From positions 1 to 23,086 of IMG/VR virus record IMGVR_UViG_3300032214_001169: 23,086 nucleotides of DNA. One strand, given 5' to 3'. Below are positions 2,275 to 22,762 of this stretch, piece by piece. Positions within the stretch are counted from its first letter, which is position 1. Each line of letters begins with the position of its first letter. The translations under genes and the position numbers were made by a program. The notes beneath the pieces are model-generated. The model did not search any database. It was not told the origin of the DNA and saw only the letters and a list, made by a program, of their open reading frames with translations. This DNA comes from a virus.

Positions 2275-5200
2275 ATGGCATATGCAGGTAAGGGGCCAAA
2301 GAGACTTGGTGGTAAGGTTTATGATTATAATAATCAAGTTGGCGCAGCTGGATCTATTTTAGTTTCTACAGGATCATCTGTAGAGTGGGTATCTAGTAGT
2401 AGTGTTGTAACACTAGGAATAGGAACAAATAGAAATGCTGAATTTCAGCAAGTTAATGTTTCAGGAGTAACCACTTCTAAAGGTGGTTTTGTAGGTAATT
2501 TAACTGGAACTGCAACAACATCAACAAATCTTTCTGATGCTGCAAATATTACCACTGGAACTATTAATGCTTCTAGATTATCTGGAACTTATAACATTGA
2601 TATAAGTGGTAATGCTGCAACTGCAGATTATGCTGATGTATCAGGTATTTCTACATATTCCATATCAGCAGGTGTCGCCACCTATGCTACCAACGCTGGT
2701 ATCGCCACCTATGCTACCAACGCAGGTATTGCGACTTATGCTACAAGTGCAGGAGTTGCAACTGCTCTTCAAAACGCAAGAACATTTGAGATTACTGGTG
2801 ATGTTGTTGCTTCCGGAATAATTTTTGACGGTACTGGTAACGTATCTTTAGCTGCAACAATTCAACCAAATAGTGTTGGATTAGGAACTGATACAACTGG
2901 TGATTATGTTCAGTCTATTACTGGAACTTCAAATCAGATTACTGTTACTAGTGGAACTGGGGAAGGTTCAGCACCAACACTGAGTATTCCAACTCAGTTT
3001 ACTGCTCCACAGGACGTTACGGTTACTAGAGATTTACAAGTTAATCGTAATTTAAATGTTAATGGTAATATTACGATTGGTGGAACAACCGCTGTAATCT
3101 TTTCACAATCATTAAACATCTATGACCCTGATATTGTTCTTGGTTATAGAACTGATGCTTTTGGTAATGATGTTTCAAATGATAATACTGCCAATCATGG
3201 TGGCGTTGCTCTTGCATCCACAGAAGGAAACCCATTAGTTCAGTTATTCATTGCTGGGATTGAAACAAACCCCGCCACATACAAAAAGATTATGTGGTTC
3301 AAGGCGGGTGAATTTGCTGGACTTGGAACTGATGCTTGGTTGATGAACTATGCTGTTGGTATTGGAAGCACTCAATTCCCAACAGGAACCAGATTAGCAG
3401 CAGGTTCAGTTCAATTCACTGAAAATGATTTAGCAGTAGTAAGAAATATTAATGCTTCTGGTATTATTACTTCAACGAGTGGTATTAGGGTATCTAATGG
3501 TGGAATCAATGTAACAGGTGTTTCTACGTTTGTTGATAGTATTAACTTCAATTCAACATTAAAAGATTATTTTGGCAATGTTGGTGCAGCTTCTTCTGTT
3601 TTAATTTCAACAGGGTCTGGAATTAAATGGGAATCAATTGAAACTGCGGCTTTACAAGGATCTCAAGGATCTCAAGGTTTCCAAGGTGATATAGGTGCTC
3701 AAGGATCTCAAGGTTTCCAAGGTGATATAGGTGCTCAAGGTTCCACTGGTACTCAAGGTGCTCAAGGTGTCATAGGATTTCAAGGTGCTACCGGTAATCA
3801 AGGTGCTACCGGTGCTCAAGGTTCTACTGGTGCAACAGGTGCTCAAGGATCTCAAGGTTTCCAAGGTGATATAGGTGCTCAAGGTTCTACTGGTGCTCAA
3901 GGTTCTACTGGTGCTCAAGGATCTACTGGTGCTCAAGGAACCCAAGGTACTCAAGGTTTAACGGGACCAGTTGCTGGTACTGACAAACAAGTTATTTTTA
4001 ACAACAATAATGTATCTGCTGGTGCTACTAACTTTGTATATGATGCAGTAAATCAGAGTGTTGGTATAGGAACCATAACTCCAGCATCGGGAATTAAACT
4101 TGATGTTGTTGGTGGAGAAATCAAGGCAGGTAGAGTTGATACATCTAATGAAGGTGGTCAGTTAAGTTTTGGTAGAGCAACTGATAATGCAACTGCTTGG
4201 TATATTGATGTTTATGGAAATACTTCAACACCAAATCTTCGTTTTGTTGATGTTAGTAATTCAGCAGTAAGAGCACAAATTGATGGTTCTGGAAACTTTG
4301 TTTTTGAGAGTCCTATTGAATTAAATTCTACATTAAGGGACATCTATAATAATGTAGGTGCCGCTGGTTCTATTTTAGTTTCAACTGGGGCTGGTGTTTC
4401 TTGGACTGCCCCTTCTGCTGCTGGAACTCAAGGAGTACAAGGTGCTCAAGGAGTTCAAGGTTCTGTTGGAGCACAAGGTTCTGTTGGAGTTCAAGGTGCT
4501 CAAGGTGCTACCGGTAATCAAGGTGCTTCTGGTGCTCAAGGTGCTCAAGGTTCTACTGGTGCTCAAGGATCTCAAGGTTTCCAAGGTGATATAGGTGCTC
4601 AAGGTTCTACTGGTGCTCAAGGTTCTACTGGTGCTCAAGGATCTACTGGTGCTCAAGGAACCGCTGGTGCTCAAGGAACCGCTGGTGCTCAAGGTGCTAC
4701 CGGTGCTCAAGGTTCTACTGGTGCAACAGGTGCTCAAGGATCTCAAGGTTTCCAAGGTGATATAGGTGCTCAAGGATCTACTGGTGCTCAAGGATCTACT
4801 GGTGCTCAAGGAACCGCTGGTGCTCAAGGTTCTACTGGTGCTCAAGGTGCTACCGGTGCTCAAGGTTCAACCGGTTCTGGTTCTCAAGGATCTCAAGGTG
4901 CCACAGGTGCTCAAGGTGCACAAGGTCCCGCAGGAGGTGGTGGTGGATCTGGAGAGTCTTATTGGGTATCAACATCTGCTGGAATTCATACACTTTCTAG
5001 TGTTGGTGTAGGTACAACAAATCCAAATACTGTAGTAACTTCTAATAATACATCAACTCTTGCTGTTGGAGTTGTTACTTCATATGTAGTTAATACAAAT
5101 GTTATTGGAGTTGGTGATACCAGTTATACGAATGCTAACAACTTTATTATAGAAACAAAAACCGTAACTACAGCAACCACGAGTCAAGTTGGAATTGATA

Positions 5201-5550
5201 CTTTCTCATCAGACTTGTATAGAAGCGCCAAATATTATGTTCAGTTAACTAATGATAGTGATTATCATGTCGTTGAAATTACTGTTTTACATGATGGATC
5301 AAGTGTATATTTGCTTGAATCAAATGCTCTTAAATTAAATGTTGCTTGTGGAATTTTTACAGGATCTATAACTGGATCTGATTTAACTCTGTCATTAACA
5401 CCATCTACTGCTGAACCAACTAATATTATTCTTAATAGAACTTTAATTCGCAGTACAGGAAGTGCATTTGCTCCAACTGGAGATTTACTATTACAAACTG
5501 GAAGTATTGATTTTATGGTCGGATCTGGACAATTTGACTTGAATACATAA
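2275..5550 (+). CDS. giant tail fibre with two collagen-like domains
   Basis: 1091 residues. In order: an N-terminal cassette (about 12-40) with [12 protein letters not shown]; a short tandem repeat (about 132-163) of A-G-I-A-T-Y-A-T-N; beta-rich shaft; a module at about 258-345 with GNITIGG and a metal-site-like NHGGVAL turn; a second [12 protein letters not shown] cassette (about 432-455); 35 uninterrupted Gly-x-y triplets (462-566); a beta region with a third [12 protein letters not shown] cassette (to about 715); 50 further Gly-x-y triplets, a five-residue break, then five more (717-886); and a C-terminal domain (about 890-1091). The C-terminal domain has an [19 protein letters not shown] strand set that I associate with cyanophage fibre tips. 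Collagen-like stretches in phage fibres form trimeric helices. Trimeric receptor-binding fibre is inferred. AGAGGT at 2261-2266 may be the ribosome-binding site. Confidence 0.85.
2668..2763 (+). repeat. 27-bp tandem repeat, 3.5 copies, in frame
   Basis: Units start at 2668, 2695 and 2722, with a partial unit at 2749-2763. Each encodes nine residues, A-G-(V/I)-A-T-Y-A-T-(N/S). The first two units differ at few bases and the third is more diverged. The array is a short beta or coiled linker in the fibre shaft and can change length without a frameshift. Confidence 0.85.
3658..3972 (+). repeat. collagen-like repeat array 1 (35 Gly-x-y triplets)
   Basis: 35 consecutive triplets beginning with Gly, dominated by GAQ, GST, GSQ and GAT, with a recurring [12 protein letters not shown] block (three copies). 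There is only one Pro, so a triple helix would rely on Gln, Thr and Ser rather than imino acids. The length is an exact multiple of nine bases. Confidence 0.95.
3838..3942 (+). repeat. 105-bp exact direct repeat, copy 1
   Basis: Positions 3838-3942 match 4558-4662 at every base; the match ends at 3837/4557 and 3943/4663. The offset is 720 bp, or 240 codons, so recombination between copies would keep the frame. A second, overlapping repeat (3798-3884 against 4689-4775, 87 bp, offset 891 bp) is also exact and in frame. Confidence 0.95.
4423..4932 (+). repeat. collagen-like repeat array 2 (50 + 5 Gly-x-y triplets)
   Basis: 50 uninterrupted Gly-x-y triplets (4423-4872), a GSGSQ interruption (4873-4887), then five triplets ending in GPA (4888-4932) and a Gly-rich hinge. 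It carries two more copies of the [12 protein letters not shown] block seen in array 1. Confidence 0.95.
4558..4662 (+). repeat. 105-bp exact direct repeat, copy 2
   Basis: Second copy of the 105-bp repeat at 3838-3942. It lies in collagen-like array 2, while copy 1 lies in array 1. Identity at silent positions points to recent duplication or gene conversion rather than selection on protein sequence alone. Confidence 0.95.
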
Positions 5551-9122: not shown

Positions 9123-9160
9123 ATCCCTCTAGGATTGACAAAAATTCTAGAGGGATTTAT
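9123..9160 (+). terminator. intrinsic terminator ending the fibre module
   Basis: The arm ATCCCTCTAG (9123-9132) pairs exactly with CTAGAGGGAT (9147-9156). Four more inner pairs (one G-T) leave a six-base loop, followed by TTTAT. It starts 21 nt after the fibre stop codon. The U-tract is short because the same bases double as the -10 box of the next promoter. Confidence 0.75.
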
Positions 9161-10902: not shown

Positions 10903-11528
10903 AAAAAGTATTAATTGCTACACCTTGTCTTGATGGAAGAGTCGAAGCCTACTTTACAAATTCATTGTATGAGTCTGTAAAACTTGGTTTGGAAAATGAT
11001 ATAATGCTTCAACCAGTTTTTCTTGCTTATGAAAGTATTCTTCCAATGGCTAGAAATGAGTTGTTTAATTTAGCATATAAAGAAAAATATGATGATATGG
11101 TTTTCATTGATGATGATGAGTGTTGGGATGCCAATGCCCTTATTGATATTATTCAATCACCAAAAGATGTAGTTGCAGTTCCTGTAGTCAATAAAGGTGA
11201 TAGGAAAGTAGAGTATAATGTTTATGGAGTAGATAAAATTCCAGATCCAACTGATGGTTATCATAAAATTGTAAAGTGTGGAACTGGGTTTCTTAAACTA
11301 TCTCAAAAAGTAATTAAAGATTTGTATGAAAGTAATCCAGATTGTGAATTTAGAGGTAAAGTTTTAAAGAATATTTGTGAGTATGCAAATATTAATGAAA
11401 CTTTTGTTGGTGAAGACATTATGCTTTGTAAAAAAATTAGAGAACTTGGATATACTATTTGGGTTAATCCAAAGTACACTGTGTCTCACATTGGAATGAA
11501 AATGTATCGTGGTAACTTTGAAGTATGA
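10899..11528 (+). CDS. glycosyltransferase, GT-A fold
   Basis: 209 residues. It begins KKVLIATPCLDGRVEAYFTNSL. A LPMARNELFNLA helix is at 49-59 and F-I-D-D-D-E-C at 69-75, the metal-binding acidic triplet. A glycine-containing acceptor loop (V-K-C-G-T-G-F-L-K-L, 126-134) follows, then V-G-E-D-I-M-L-C-K-K (170-179) and Y-T-V-S-H-I-G near 193-199, the catalytic-acid and late His motifs of this type. It is short for the fold, about 210 residues against the more usual 230-300, but all core motifs are present. It resembles GTs found in phage and giant-virus surface loci. ATGA overlaps join it to both neighbours. Substrate unknown. Confidence 0.75.
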   Translation: MKKVLIATPCLDGRVEAYFTNSLYESVKLGLENDIMLQPVFLAYESILPMARNELFNLAYKEKYDDMVFIDDDECWDANALIDIIQSPKDVVAVPVVNKGDRKVEYNVYGVDKIPDPTDGYHKIVKCGTGFLKLSQKVIKDLYESNPDCEFRGKVLKNICEYANINETFVGEDIMLCKKIRELGYTIWVNPKYTVSHIGMKMYRGNFEV

Positions 11529-12309: not shown

Positions 12310-13170
12310 ATGAAAATAAAAATTTGTATACCCCATTATTTTGCAACAAAATTTGATGAAGACTTTTATTCTTCTCATGGATGGACGCACGGATCATTAG
12401 ATGGGAAAATTGATAAAAGAACAGAAGCATTTGATAAATGTTTATGGTCTTTATTTCATATTGGAACTCAAAATAATGATGGATTATTAGACATACGTAC
12501 TAATATAACAAATAAAATATTAAATCAGATTAAATATCATGATATTTCAATTTCAGTAATTACTGATGGTAAAAATATTTGTAAAGAAATTTTAAACAAA
12601 TATAAAAATTATATTACTATAAAAGAGGTGGATATAAGTAATTCAATGGATTTAGTGTTTGAAACTAGAGAAGAATTATTTAACGGAGAAAATTATGATT
12701 TATATTTTTATTGTGAGGATGATATTGGAATAAATGATAAAAAATATTTTGATAAAGTGGACTGGTTTGCAGAACAAACAAATCATAAGGGAGTCTTGAT
12801 GCCCTATAGATTTGAAAATTTATATTCATTGGAAATTGAAAAGATTTATATTGATGGACCTATAGACCAAAATATGCTTACGGGGTTTATGAAACCTAAA
12901 AATAACTCATTATCCCTAAAGTATAAAAATACTAATATAGTATTTGATAATCCGATGAATCCTCATTCTGGAACTTTTTGTTTGACAAAGCAACAAAGAG
13001 ATTATATAATAGAAAAAGGAATAACAAGAAGGAGTGATTTTGTAAGCTCGCTTGAAAGTGTATGTACTTTAACTGCAATGGAATTTTTTGATATATATAA
13101 AACCACTTTTAAATATAGAAAATTTTTAGAGGTAGAGCATCTTTGTCCAAGATATAATATTATAAATTAA
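12310..13170 (+). CDS. putative GT-A-like glycosyltransferase
   Basis: 286 residues. KIKICIPHYF opens the protein. The sequence L-Y-F-Y-C-E-D-D-I-G-I (131-141) looks like the strand-plus-acidic-triplet of GT-A enzymes. Downstream are a HKGVLMPYRFE strand, NPHSGTFCLTKQQ (about 217-229) and a FVSSLESVCT helix. The domain order fits a glycosyltransferase, but the sequence is divergent and I cannot assign a family. It is strongly AT-rich. The first 17 bases are identical to the start of the next gene, which hints at a shared origin or simply AT-rich usage. A perfect sigma70-type promoter match lies within its coding sequence at 12982-13010. Confidence 0.55.
   Translation: MKIKICIPHYFATKFDEDFYSSHGWTHGSLDGKIDKRTEAFDKCLWSLFHIGTQNNDGLLDIRTNITNKILNQIKYHDISISVITDGKNICKEILNKYKNYITIKEVDISNSMDLVFETREELFNGENYDLYFYCEDDIGINDKKYFDKVDWFAEQTNHKGVLMPYRFENLYSLEIEKIYIDGPIDQNMLTGFMKPKNNSLSLKYKNTNIVFDNPMNPHSGTFCLTKQQRDYIIEKGITRRSDFVSSLESVCTLTAMEFFDIYKTTFKYRKFLEVEHLCPRYNIIN
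12982..13010 (+). promoter_or_regulatory. intragenic consensus sigma70 promoter
   Basis: TTGACA (12982-12987), 17 bp, TATAAT (13005-13010), inside the gene at 12310-13170. The start would be near 13017, giving a leader of about 158 nt to the next ATG at 13175. Exact 12-base consensus with 17-bp spacing is rare by chance, but coding function also constrains these bases. Confidence 0.5.
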
Positions 13171-15395: not shown

Positions 15396-16322
15396 ATGAA
15401 TACTGATAAGACTTTCTATTTTATGGCGGGACTTCCACGATCTGGAAGTACACTGCTTTCTTCTTTATTAAATCAGAATCCTAGGTTTTATTCTGGACCA
15501 AGTTCTCCAGTAGTTTCTACAATGCTTGGACTGGAAAATCATTTTTCACAAGATGAATTATTTTTAGGATATCCAAAAGTGGAAGTTGCTAAAAATATTA
15601 TTGCATCCATTCTTCCGCAATATTATTCTGATGTTAATAATCCAGTTGTTTTTGATAAAAATAGATCTTGGGTCAATCGCATGAATTATATTTCTGGATA
15701 TTTTGATATTGTGCCAAAAGTAATTTGTCCAGTTAGAGATATTTCGGAGATTCTAACGTCATTTATTATGATGCGGCGTAGAAATTTTAATTTAGATCAA
15801 ACTAAAATTAATTTTATCGATGAGATGTTAGTCAAGAGTAATATTCCACTAACTGATGACAATCGCTGTGAGTTTATTGCAAGCCCAAATGGAATTCTTG
15901 GTCAATCTTATAATGGTTTAAAGCAAGCAATTATGGAAGGGTATGATCATTGCCTGCACTTTGTTGAATATGAAGATCTTGTCAATAACCCTCAAGAAAC
16001 CTTAAATAGAATCTATGAGTTTCTTGATGAAGAACCATTTGAACATACTTTTGATAATTTAGAAAATCCTCATCGTGAGAATGATCTACAAGTTTATGGT
16101 CTTGCTGATATGCATGAAGTTCGTCCCGTTGTTAAATCAACTGCACCTAGTCCAGAGGAAATTCTTTCTCCTGAAACGCTTGCAAAATGTCAGAATGCAG
16201 AATTCTGGAGAGAACTTACATCTGATTTAGATGATGAAATAGATCTTGATGATGACATTGATTTTACAGATAATGACTATGAATTAGAAGAGACTTCTTT
16301 TATTGGGTCTTCTAATAGTTGA
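15396..16322 (+). CDS. sulfotransferase family protein
   Basis: 308 residues. The N-terminal F-Y-F-M-A-G-L-P-R-S-G-S-T-L-L-S-S-L (residues 7-24) is the 5'-phosphosulfate-binding loop of PAPS-dependent sulfotransferases. V-I-C-P-V-R-D-I-S-E-I-L-T-S-F (about 108-122) is the 3'-phosphate-binding motif with its Arg and Ser. H-F-V-E-Y-E-D-L-V-N-N-P-Q-E-T-L-x-R-I-Y-x-F-L (about 188-211) is the typical late helix. The reaction moves sulfate from PAPS to a hydroxyl, here probably a sugar, given the neighbours. The last 45 residues are extremely acidic (runs of Asp and Glu), outside the catalytic core. AGGAGA at 15384-15389 is a good ribosome-binding site. The TGA stop lies inside the next promoter's -35. 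Confidence 0.85.
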   Translation: MNTDKTFYFMAGLPRSGSTLLSSLLNQNPRFYSGPSSPVVSTMLGLENHFSQDELFLGYPKVEVAKNIIASILPQYYSDVNNPVVFDKNRSWVNRMNYISGYFDIVPKVICPVRDISEILTSFIMMRRRNFNLDQTKINFIDEMLVKSNIPLTDDNRCEFIASPNGILGQSYNGLKQAIMEGYDHCLHFVEYEDLVNNPQETLNRIYEFLDEEPFEHTFDNLENPHRENDLQVYGLADMHEVRPVVKSTAPSPEEILSPETLAKCQNAEFWRELTSDLDDEIDLDDDIDFTDNDYELEETSFIGSSNS

Positions 16323-16347
16323 CAATCCCCACATAATCCTTTATAAT
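16319..16347 (+). promoter_or_regulatory. consensus sigma70 promoter of the small RNA unit
   Basis: TTGACA (16319-16324), 17 bp, TATAAT (16342-16347). The upstream gene's stop is embedded in the -35. The expected start at about 16353-16354 coincides with the first base of a helix, and a terminator follows after about 100 nt. Confidence 0.85.
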
Positions 16348-16352
16348 AACAA

Positions 16353-16453
16353 GGTCTTCAACATCCTTGTAACTTTGGGAATGAAGACCACTTCTCTGTG
16401 GTGGGAGAGGTGAGTTGGTGGTTAACAGGGAGGGTTTTATACCCTCCTTTTTT
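16353..16453 (+). ncRNA. candidate structured small RNA, about 100 nt
   Basis: The unit lies between a perfect promoter and an intrinsic terminator and has no gene longer than ten codons. Helix 1: GGTCTTCA (16353-16360) with TGAAGACC (16382-16389), 8 bp, closing a 21-nt loop. Helix 2: CACTTCTC (16389-16396) with GAGAGGTG (16405-16412), 8 pairs, one wobble. Helix 3 is the terminator (16429-16447). The predicted 5' end begins in helix 1, as in many stable small RNAs. A separate promoter for the downstream gene begins right after the terminator, so this need not be its leader. I do not recognise the family. An alternative is an attenuator: a ten-codon ORF, MKTTSLWWER, lies at 16381-16413. Confidence 0.6.
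16429..16453 (+). terminator. intrinsic terminator of the small RNA unit
   Basis: GGAGGGT (16429-16435), loop TTTAT, ACCCTCC (16441-16447), then six T (16448-16453). It is a strong GC stem with a clean U-tract, three bases before the next -35 box. Confidence 0.9.
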
Positions 16454-16455
16454 AT

Positions 16456-16484
16456 TTGACTTTATGTATGATAGAGGTTATAAT
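16456..16484 (+). promoter_or_regulatory. near-consensus sigma70 promoter
   Basis: TTGACT (16456-16461), 17 bp, TATAAT (16479-16484); one mismatch in twelve. The start would be near 16491, 17 nt before the ATG at 16508. Confidence 0.8.
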
Positions 16485-16507: not shown

Positions 16508-17740
16508 ATGGAATATAAGTTCAGTATTATTTCTCCGTCTCATAAAAACACTCCATATCTTCAAGAACTTTACGAAAGTCTAGTTGCTCAGACTTATGGA
16601 AATTGGGAGTGGATTTTATGGTTGAATGGAAAGTTTGATCGTAATAAACTTTCTGCTGAGATTGAGAATGATGAAAGAGTAAAAATTTATCAGTGTGTGG
16701 AAGAGAATTCTAATGTAGGATTTCATAAAAATAAAGCATTTCATCTTGGAACAGGAGACATTCTTGTTGAGGTAGACCACGATGATATGCTTACTCCAGA
16801 TTGTTTGGAAGAACTGAATAATGCATATCAGGACCAAGAGATTGGTTTTGTGTATAGTGACGCTGCAATTTACGATGATAACTTTGTCCCATATCTTGCA
16901 GACCACGGTTGGACTTATTATCATCATAAGTTTCGTGATAAGAACTTATGTGTAATGAATTCTTGGCGTCCAACTAGTCAGGCATTGTCATTCATCTGGT
17001 ATGCCCCAGACCACGTTAGGTCTTGGAGAAAGAGTGTCTATCAATCAATCGGTGGACATAATGTTGAATTGGGTATCTGTGATGACCACGAACTGATGAT
17101 TAGAACGTATCTGAATACGAAGATGTTTCATATTCAGAAACCTCTTTATATTTACAGGGTTTATGGTGACAATACTTATCTGGAAAGAAATGCTCAAATT
17201 CAGACTAAGACTGTAGACCTTTATTATCAATATGCATATCAACTTGCAGAGAAGGATGCGGAAGAACGTGGACTTCTGAAGGTTGATATTGGTGGTGGAC
17301 TGTATCCTCGTCCTGGTTATGTGACAATTGATCAAGAGGGGTCTGATATTACTTGTGACTTGAATGATGGTATTCCACTCCCTGACAATAGTGTTGGTGT
17401 TCTGAATGCAAGTCACGTCCTAGAGCACCTGAGAGACCCTGTTAAGTCAATGCGTGAAATTCATAGGGTCCTTGCACACGGTGGTTGGGCAATGATTGAA
17501 GTGCCTTCTACAGATGGTAGAGGGGCATTTCAAGACCCAACTCACGTTAGCTTCTGGAATGAACATAGTTTCTGGTATTATACTAACAAACAGAAAGCAG
17601 ACTTTATTAGAAACTATGATATTCGCTTTCAAACGTATCGGTTAAATACTTGGGAAATGGCACCACATATTCCCGTTGTCACTGCTTGGTTGACAGCAAT
17701 TAAGGATGAAGAACGTTTCCCTGGAGTTCTTGGAATTTAA
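16508..17740 (+). CDS. bifunctional glycosyltransferase-methyltransferase fusion
   Basis: 410 residues in two domains. Residues 1-225 are GT2: F-S-I-I-S-P-S-H-K-N (5-14), W-E-W-I-L-W-L-N (33-40), the D-H-D-D metal site (90-93), and D-D-H-E-L-M-I-R (192-199) as the catalytic acidic helix. Residues 256-400 are a class I methyltransferase of the Methyltransf_11 type. K-V-D-I-G-G-G (258-264) binds SAM, I-D-Q (274-276) is the next strand, I-P-L-P-D-N-S-V (289-296) and H-V-L-E-H-L-R-D-P (303-311) are hallmark motifs, followed by G-G-W-A-M-I-E-V-P (325-333). One polypeptide could add a sugar and methylate it or its neighbour. The composition is less AT-rich than the operon at 9188-14427. No clear Shine-Dalgarno. 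Confidence 0.85.
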   Translation: MEYKFSIISPSHKNTPYLQELYESLVAQTYGNWEWILWLNGKFDRNKLSAEIENDERVKIYQCVEENSNVGFHKNKAFHLGTGDILVEVDHDDMLTPDCLEELNNAYQDQEIGFVYSDAAIYDDNFVPYLADHGWTYYHHKFRDKNLCVMNSWRPTSQALSFIWYAPDHVRSWRKSVYQSIGGHNVELGICDDHELMIRTYLNTKMFHIQKPLYIYRVYGDNTYLERNAQIQTKTVDLYYQYAYQLAEKDAEERGLLKVDIGGGLYPRPGYVTIDQEGSDITCDLNDGIPLPDNSVGVLNASHVLEHLRDPVKSMREIHRVLAHGGWAMIEVPSTDGRGAFQDPTHVSFWNEHSFWYYTNKQKADFIRNYDIRFQTYRLNTWEMAPHIPVVTAWLTAIKDEERFPGVLGI

Positions 17741-20467: not shown

Positions 20468-20704
20468 ATGAAATTCACAGTTTATAGTAAAGAAGGTTGT
20501 CCATATTGTGACAAGGTAAAGAAAGTATTAGAGTTGACAAATATGCAATTTGTCGTTTATACTCTAGAGGAAGATTTTACTAAGAATCAGTTTTATGCTG
20601 AGTTTGGAGAAGGTTCAACTTTTCCTCAAGTAATTTGTGATGAGAAAAAATTAGGAGGATCCGTTGACACAATCAAATTCCTCAAGGAAAAACAAATCAT
20701 CTGA
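20468..20704 (+). CDS. glutaredoxin
   Basis: 78 residues, the usual size for a phage or bacterial class I glutaredoxin. Active site C11-P-Y-C14, cis-Pro loop T-F-P53-Q-V, and G-G-S-V-D (63-67) for glutathione binding. It reduces disulfides with glutathione; in T4-like phages glutaredoxins supply electrons to ribonucleotide reductase (compare T4 nrdC). It begins 2 nt after the oxygenase stop, at the head of a run of short genes that I recall as typical of T4-like cyanophages. Its last 41 bases are overlapped in another frame by the next gene. Confidence 0.93.
   Translation: MKFTVYSKEGCPYCDKVKKVLELTNMQFVVYTLEEDFTKNQFYAEFGEGSTFPQVICDEKKLGGSVDTIKFLKEKQII
20534..20563 (+). promoter_or_regulatory. 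possible intragenic sigma70 promoter
   Basis: TTGACA (20534-20539), 18 bp, TATACT (20558-20563) within the glutaredoxin gene. It would direct the downstream small genes. Weaker than the other matches in spacing and -10 sequence. Confidence 0.25.
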
Positions 20705-22645: not shown

Positions 22646-22731
22646 TGGGACAAGTCATCATATCTTCAACTGCTGCGATTGCGTTGATGACCATACTACT
22701 GTCATCATACATTCAGTGGCTTTATAAGTAA
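22645..22731 (+). CDS. 28-residue single-pass membrane peptide
   Basis: 28 residues: V-I-I-S-S-T-A-A-I-A-L-M-T-I-L-L-S-S-Y-I-Q-W-L-Y-K, almost entirely one transmembrane helix with a C-terminal Lys. The start overlaps the previous stop (TGATG). Very small membrane proteins of this size are common in cyanobacterial photosystems and also in phages, but I see no match to a named subunit. It is followed after six bases by a terminator, so the three miniature genes form one unit. Confidence 0.5.
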   Translation: MGQVIISSTAAIALMTILLSSYIQWLYK

Positions 22732-22737
22732 GTCATC

Positions 22738-22762
22738 AAGGAGGGGCAACCCTCCTTTTTTT
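22738..22762 (+). terminator. intrinsic terminator with GCAA tetraloop
   Basis: AAGGAGGG (22738-22745), loop GCAA, CCCTCCTT (22750-22757), T-tract through 22762. The GNRA-type loop and perfect 8-bp stem make this the cleanest terminator in the window. Confidence 0.93.

Follow-up and report, generated by a model that had tools for sequence, protein, structure and literature searches.

A conserved family of putative small regulatory RNAs near the glutaredoxin gene of T4-like cyanophages

The window analysed here, the whole 23,086-nucleotide stretch formed by positions 1 to 23,086 of IMG/VR virus record IMGVR_UViG_3300032214_001169, contains a short gap between a sulfotransferase gene (15396-16322, + strand; Pfam Sulfotransfer_3) and a gene for a GT2-methyltransferase fusion (16508-17740, +; Pfam Glycos_transf_2 and Methyltransf_11). 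A first-pass annotation had proposed a self-contained small RNA gene, and comparison with relatives, in which helices, promoter and terminator are conserved together, supports that proposal.

The gap begins with a host early-type sigma-70 promoter on the + strand (TTGACA-17-TATAAT, 16319-16347), composed of a -35 box at 16319-16324, which shares bases with the sulfotransferase stop codon, a 17-nt spacer and a -10 box at 16342-16347; the perfect match (12/12) noted in the first-pass annotation was confirmed and is conserved in relatives. Its spacing would place the transcription start at about 16353, which is, as had been claimed, the first base of an 8-bp helix, and a small RNA of about 100 nt (16353-16453, +) would end at the terminator. 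The predicted fold comprises hairpin 1 (16353-16389, +), with an outer helix of 8 bp (16353-16360/16382-16389), an inner helix (16364-16367/16377-16380) missing from the first-pass list and a 9-nt loop, UGUAACUUU (16368-16376); hairpin 2 (16390-16411, +), in which the previously described second helix of 8 bp (16390-16397/16404-16411) carries the 6-nt loop GUGGUG (16398-16403); a single-stranded linker (16412-16426, +) with a conserved GGUGGU at 16417-16422, corresponding to the invariant columns G66-T71 of alignment A1; and hairpin 3, whose stem (16427-16435/16441-16449) and T run form an intrinsic terminator (16427-16455, +) that had been called strong and is kept in relatives. A competing pairing of CAAGG (16350-16354) with CCTTG (16365-16369) did not hold up, as bases 16350-16352 precede the likely start and the pairing is not conserved in relatives. 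The second promoter reported at 16456 is real (TTGACT-17-TATAAT, 16456-16484, +; 11/12) and would serve the displaced downstream gene.

The folding energy of the window RNA is -40.4 kcal/mol (z = -3.15 against dinucleotide shuffles, 1 of 200 shuffles being equally stable). Promoter and terminator counts within the window alone are not above those of shuffles, so significance was taken from conservation, and it is conservation across relatives that excludes a chance origin.

Sequence comparison assigns the window RNA to a conserved RNA family of T4-like cyanophages (Kyanoviridae). A 21-nt string from it recurs in 12 viral contigs; 113 stretches match a degenerate pattern that covers hairpin 2 and the linker. 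With a covariance model, 82 sources gave 53 matches at E <= 0.1, most of which lie directly upstream of the glutaredoxin gene nrdC. Altogether 90 distinct copies were collected, counted by the sequence of copy and flanks and including loci fetched through nrdC; some come from nearly identical phage populations, and independent lineages number fewer than 90. The order promoter, RNA, terminator is the same in almost every complete copy. Upstream sequence is long enough to assess the promoter in 85 distinct copies; it matches at 12/12 positions in 67 of them and at 11/12 in 14. Nearly every copy has a terminator after the RNA, its stem sequence being changed. A palindrome pattern with variable gap yielded mostly chance coding matches, true members being among them, and those weak model matches (11.6-23.8 bits, including window 22652-22761) that were inspected proved to be coding sequence, tail-fibre repeats or plain terminators. 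With the RNA as query, blastn against 50,697 phage records returned only promoter or terminator fragments and chance matches.

A diverged member was detected through nrdC and the covariance model, not by blastn, in Synechococcus phage S-SRM01 (MW015081, Serangoon Reservoir; 75.8 bits, E = 6e-15), the one annotated isolate with the RNA. It occupies a gap without annotated feature at about 10975-11079 of the record, its helix changes are compensatory, and the genome paper, looked up for small-RNA and promoter terms, gave no reference to it. Since this isolate is deposited together with its host, Synechococcus sp. KCZYC6, expression, timing and partner of the RNA are directly testable.

The body helices keep standard pairs in 99.2% of cells among 36 distinct aligned sequences. 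Cells with double changes number 28, compared with 7.9 +/- 2.3 in shuffles (0/500) and 0-3 once the partners were slid, in an alignment that was fitted to the structure and hence biased in its favour; alignment A1, built with MAFFT without structure, still contains 6 pairs with double changes. Three pairs of the hairpin 2 helix show double changes, and C-G to U-A replacements occur in the outer helix, the inner helix and helix 2. Loss of helices 1 and 2 among relatives would have spoken against the first-pass proposal; both are kept with compensatory changes, as is the inner helix.

The unpaired segments are near-invariant: in individual folds of 75 unique RNAs, loop GUGGUG is found in 70 and the hairpin 1 loop UGUAWCUUU (UGUAACUUU or UGUAUCUUU) in most, and the linker UUGGUGGU is similarly constant. 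A pseudoknot between loop 1 and the linker was considered and rejected, as their variants, compared by eye, do not covary. Mean pairwise identity is 0.86 in the RNA body, 0.58 at nrdC third codon positions and 0.50 in the promoter spacer; among the most diverged fifth of pairs these values are 0.83, 0.42 and 0.49. This pattern in the aligned copies indicates that the RNA body is under purifying selection.

One rival explanation is a short peptide gene, MKTTSLWWER in the window, and most copies carry ATGAAGACC. This explanation is extremely improbable: ATGAA is missing in 12 of the 75 unique RNAs, a length difference of 2 nt in helix 2 and other changes lead to unrelated peptides, many frames read through the terminator, and the only recurrent start codon gives peptides differing by frame. 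The RNA, described earlier as holding no substantial open reading frame, keeps no peptide frame among relatives.

The same conservation bears on the idea that the unit is an insulator only, its promoter and terminator separating late tail-fibre transcripts from nrdC and the intervening RNA having no role. This would agree with the position of the RNA at the 3' edge of a variable region of tail-fibre and glycan genes, and with two nrdC loci without the RNA (L554 and L563), in which a short terminator hairpin comes immediately after a sigma-70-like promoter; such loci may represent a minimal or an ancestral version of the unit. An insulator would require neither conserved loops and linker nor helix covariation. 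Conservation of loops and linker exceeds that of nrdC synonymous sites and of the promoter spacer, and covariation is seen in the body helices, making this a quite improbable account.

The usual genomic layout, found in 82 of 89 copies, consists of early promoter, RNA, terminator, a late promoter TATAAAT and then nrdC, which starts about 32-36 nt past the RNA end in most of these copies. The genes upstream of the RNA vary, including tail-fibre, glycan and sulfotransferase genes. TATAAAT lies between terminator and nrdC in 81 of the 82 copies, and occurs 20-45 nt upstream of ORFs more often than expected in S-SRM01 (29 vs 6.1) and in G001 (25 vs 3.9); some of these ORFs we take, judged by their starts, to be tail sheath and major capsid genes. 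The element matches NATAAATA, the reported late promoter of cyanomyoviruses (PMC2984593). The layout likely reflects a plan in which an early-made RNA would be insulated from late-made nrdC.

This close association with nrdC is also the foundation of the main rival explanation, a cis-acting leader or attenuator, in which the structured RNA of early sigma-70 transcripts would choose between termination and read-through into glutaredoxin, the late promoter being a second, unregulated source. Cyanomyoviruses lack MotA, and pairing of an early with a late promoter has been proposed to account for their middle expression (PMC2984593), which fits such a role. The upstream part of the RNA also pairs with the 5' arm of the terminator (-10.2 kcal/mol, compared with -5.6 for shuffled sequence). 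Pairing with the cognate terminator is no better than with swapped ones (-10.19 vs -10.45), which means that an antiterminator has no covariation behind it, and no conserved antiterminator pairing emerged from this comparison; the hairpin of the terminator is the stronger structure (mean -13.3). The simple, separate hairpins are probably also unlike a ligand pocket. Furthermore, 7 of the 89 copies, the window among them, are exceptions to a position directly upstream of and co-directional with nrdC, and copies away from nrdC in the window, in G012 (at 16686) and in L302 retain both promoter and terminator, which speaks for a free RNA and against a leader. Attenuation of nrdC is on balance unlikely, but nrdC being the usual neighbour leaves it some probability.

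The position between sulfotransferase and GT-methyltransferase genes given by the first-pass annotation is true of the window and unusual for the family, whose normal place is 33-35 nt upstream of nrdC. The window copy has been displaced to about 4 kb upstream of nrdC (20468-20704, +; Pfam Glutaredoxin, and synteny), with four genes in between that encode, according to Pfam, the GT2-methyltransferase, a UDP-galactopyranose mutase, a TPR-like protein and a DUF6445 protein, and the sigma-70 promoter at 16456-16484 stands where the late promoter TATAAAT usually is. The related population G012 carries two copies, at 16686-16785 (L350) and 58912-59013 (L351), the former with a perfect promoter and the latter, which belongs to a group of 24 near-identical loci (L041 group), with the promoter replaced. 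This promoterless copy suggests that transcription can be lost in a displaced copy, and it counts against the reading as a small regulatory RNA. In L023 a second, truncated copy with promoter (12592-12649, - strand) is fused to glycine-rich tail-fibre-like sequence at a point inside the GTGGTGG motif, which may be a recombination junction or an assembly chimera, and L565:286-368 is a variant without hairpin 2, as if deleted between two GGUGGU repeats. The arrangements in the window, G012, L023 and L565 point to relocation and duplication of the unit at the border of the variable region, with assembly error a possible source of rearranged copies in single contigs.

The RNA represents a family not listed so far and is probably a phage-encoded, immediate-early regulatory RNA that acts in trans. 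Its own promoter and terminator would define a discrete short transcription unit, and its conserved structure exposes conserved segments and contains no conserved open reading frame. A near-unchanged RNA with its own promoter and terminator suggests that the RNA as such probably serves the virus early in infection, the early timing being deduced from promoter type only. In the proposed sequence of events, host RNA polymerase would read the perfect sigma-70 promoter, produce about 100 nt with three hairpins and stop at the terminator, so that nrdC would not be co-transcribed; in relatives nrdC would then be read late from its own TATAAAT promoter directly past the terminator. The loops UGUAWCUUU and GUGGUG and the linker UUGGUGGU would be the unpaired, invariant elements offered to a partner.

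The most likely mode of such a trans-acting RNA, with somewhat under half of the total probability, would be short-seed pairing with host transcripts via the GGUGGU-type elements, followed by a less probable one in which the doubled GGUGGU/GUGGUG motif would titrate a host RNA-binding protein. Rather doubtful is a role in early takeover or counter-defence, in which the GGUGGU/GUGGUG motif and the invariant 9-nt loop would bind a host protein and not mRNA, with an RNA-binding, nuclease or defence protein as the candidate partner; if true, cyanophages would possess viral decoy RNAs of a new class. Start regions of phage mRNAs in six genomes showed no conserved complementarity, the best combined p being 2.7e-3 and shuffled-RNA controls giving 1.7e-5 to 9e-3, and 13-nt host complements to the linker or loop 1 were scattered and not general (20 and 29 of 151 genomes). 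These tests leave room for seeds of 6-8 nt, host-specific targets or protein binding. In S-SRM01 (L360:11334 and 12318) the start codons of a gp88-family gene (Pfam PF17338) and of an ORF next to it both lie at a GUUCA-CACCAC-UGAAC hairpin. Its CACCAC loop is complementary to the RNA loop GUGGUG, possibly by chance; relatives are without this match and similar energies occur elsewhere in the same genome, and therefore it was not counted as a target.

In the genomes searched, the family is restricted to phages. Across 84,980 prokaryote species no genome matched the hairpin-2 pattern, 13 cyanobacterial genomes contained no homologous RNA (best E 0.68), and 400 Cyanobiaceae genomes yielded one 26-bit match at chance level and nothing else. 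Mimicry of a host RNA was rejected, as these genomes provided no homologous host RNA. For a putative RNA anti-CRISPR that would mimic host CRISPR repeats, the covariance model, applied to Cyanobiaceae genomes under strict filters and not to arrays directly, found no repeat-like match. Among phages, the searched regions or records of the marine isolates S-SKS1, P-SSM2, S-PM2, S-B05, ACG-2014d/f and S-SSM7 and of freshwater DSL-LC03 gave nothing at E < 0.1, and the RNA is also missing from roughly one in three of the nrdC loci with greatest similarity to the S-SRM01 locus. In Rfam 15 no family matched the window at gathering score, and the best hit of a relaxed scan of the RNA region was epsC (15.7 bits, compared with a cutoff of 42). 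The admission in the first-pass annotation that the fold was not recognised was thus fair, given that the RNA is absent from Rfam.

CsrB/RsmZ-type RNAs titrate a protein through a repeated GGA motif; the present family resembles them in repeating a short motif in a hairpin loop and the linker (GUGGUG, GGUGGU), but this motif is not GGA, has only two copies and would have a hypothetical protein partner. Species 1 and 2 RNA of T4 are small, stable RNAs of unknown role and, by description, are comparable as small RNAs of a T4-type phage, differing in their location within a tRNA cluster. VpdS and DicF, examples of trans-acting bacterial or phage small RNAs (review PMC12197685), likewise have their own promoter, hairpins and an intrinsic terminator, whereas the family described here comes from lytic cyanophages and yielded no conserved target. 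CfrI of cyanophage S-PM2, as far as it is described in PMC2984593 (citing Millard et al. 2010), is an RNA of about 225 nt that a T4-like cyanophage makes during infection, antisense to both psbA and a homing endonuclease gene and of uncertain function; the present RNA, in contrast to what is given there, is about 100 nt, intergenic, has its own sigma-70 promoter and terminator and adjoins nrdC. The Rfam elements wcaG, manA, glnA and abiF are listed for cyanophage S-CREM1 (PMC9964418), from which the window differs in matching no Rfam family at gathering score.

The RNA is therefore a separate, previously unlisted family within the known kind of phage-encoded small RNAs, and no description of it was found in the literature searched, which was that accessible without subscription. 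Documented regulatory RNAs of lytic cyanophages are few, the literature searched giving an antisense RNA or known Rfam elements, and this family combines a clear gene structure with strong conservation and covariation. If the proposed role is correct, T4-like cyanophages devote one of their strongest host-type promoters to an RNA and not to a protein. The RNA may also aid annotation, as it marks the border of the variable region with tail-fibre and glycan genes.

Further elements were noted in the window. Three more 12/12 TTGACA-17-TATAAT promoters on the + strand, with -35 boxes starting at 9135, 12982 and 14424, fall among glycosyltransferase and methyltransferase genes, suggesting that these cargo genes possess their own early-type promoters. 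A strong terminator (AAGGAGGGGCAACCCTCCTT-TTTTT, 22738-22757) follows a cluster of very small ORFs, and a tail-fibre-like ORF at 2275-5550 contains long collagen-like Gly-X-Y repeats (TGAQGS...).
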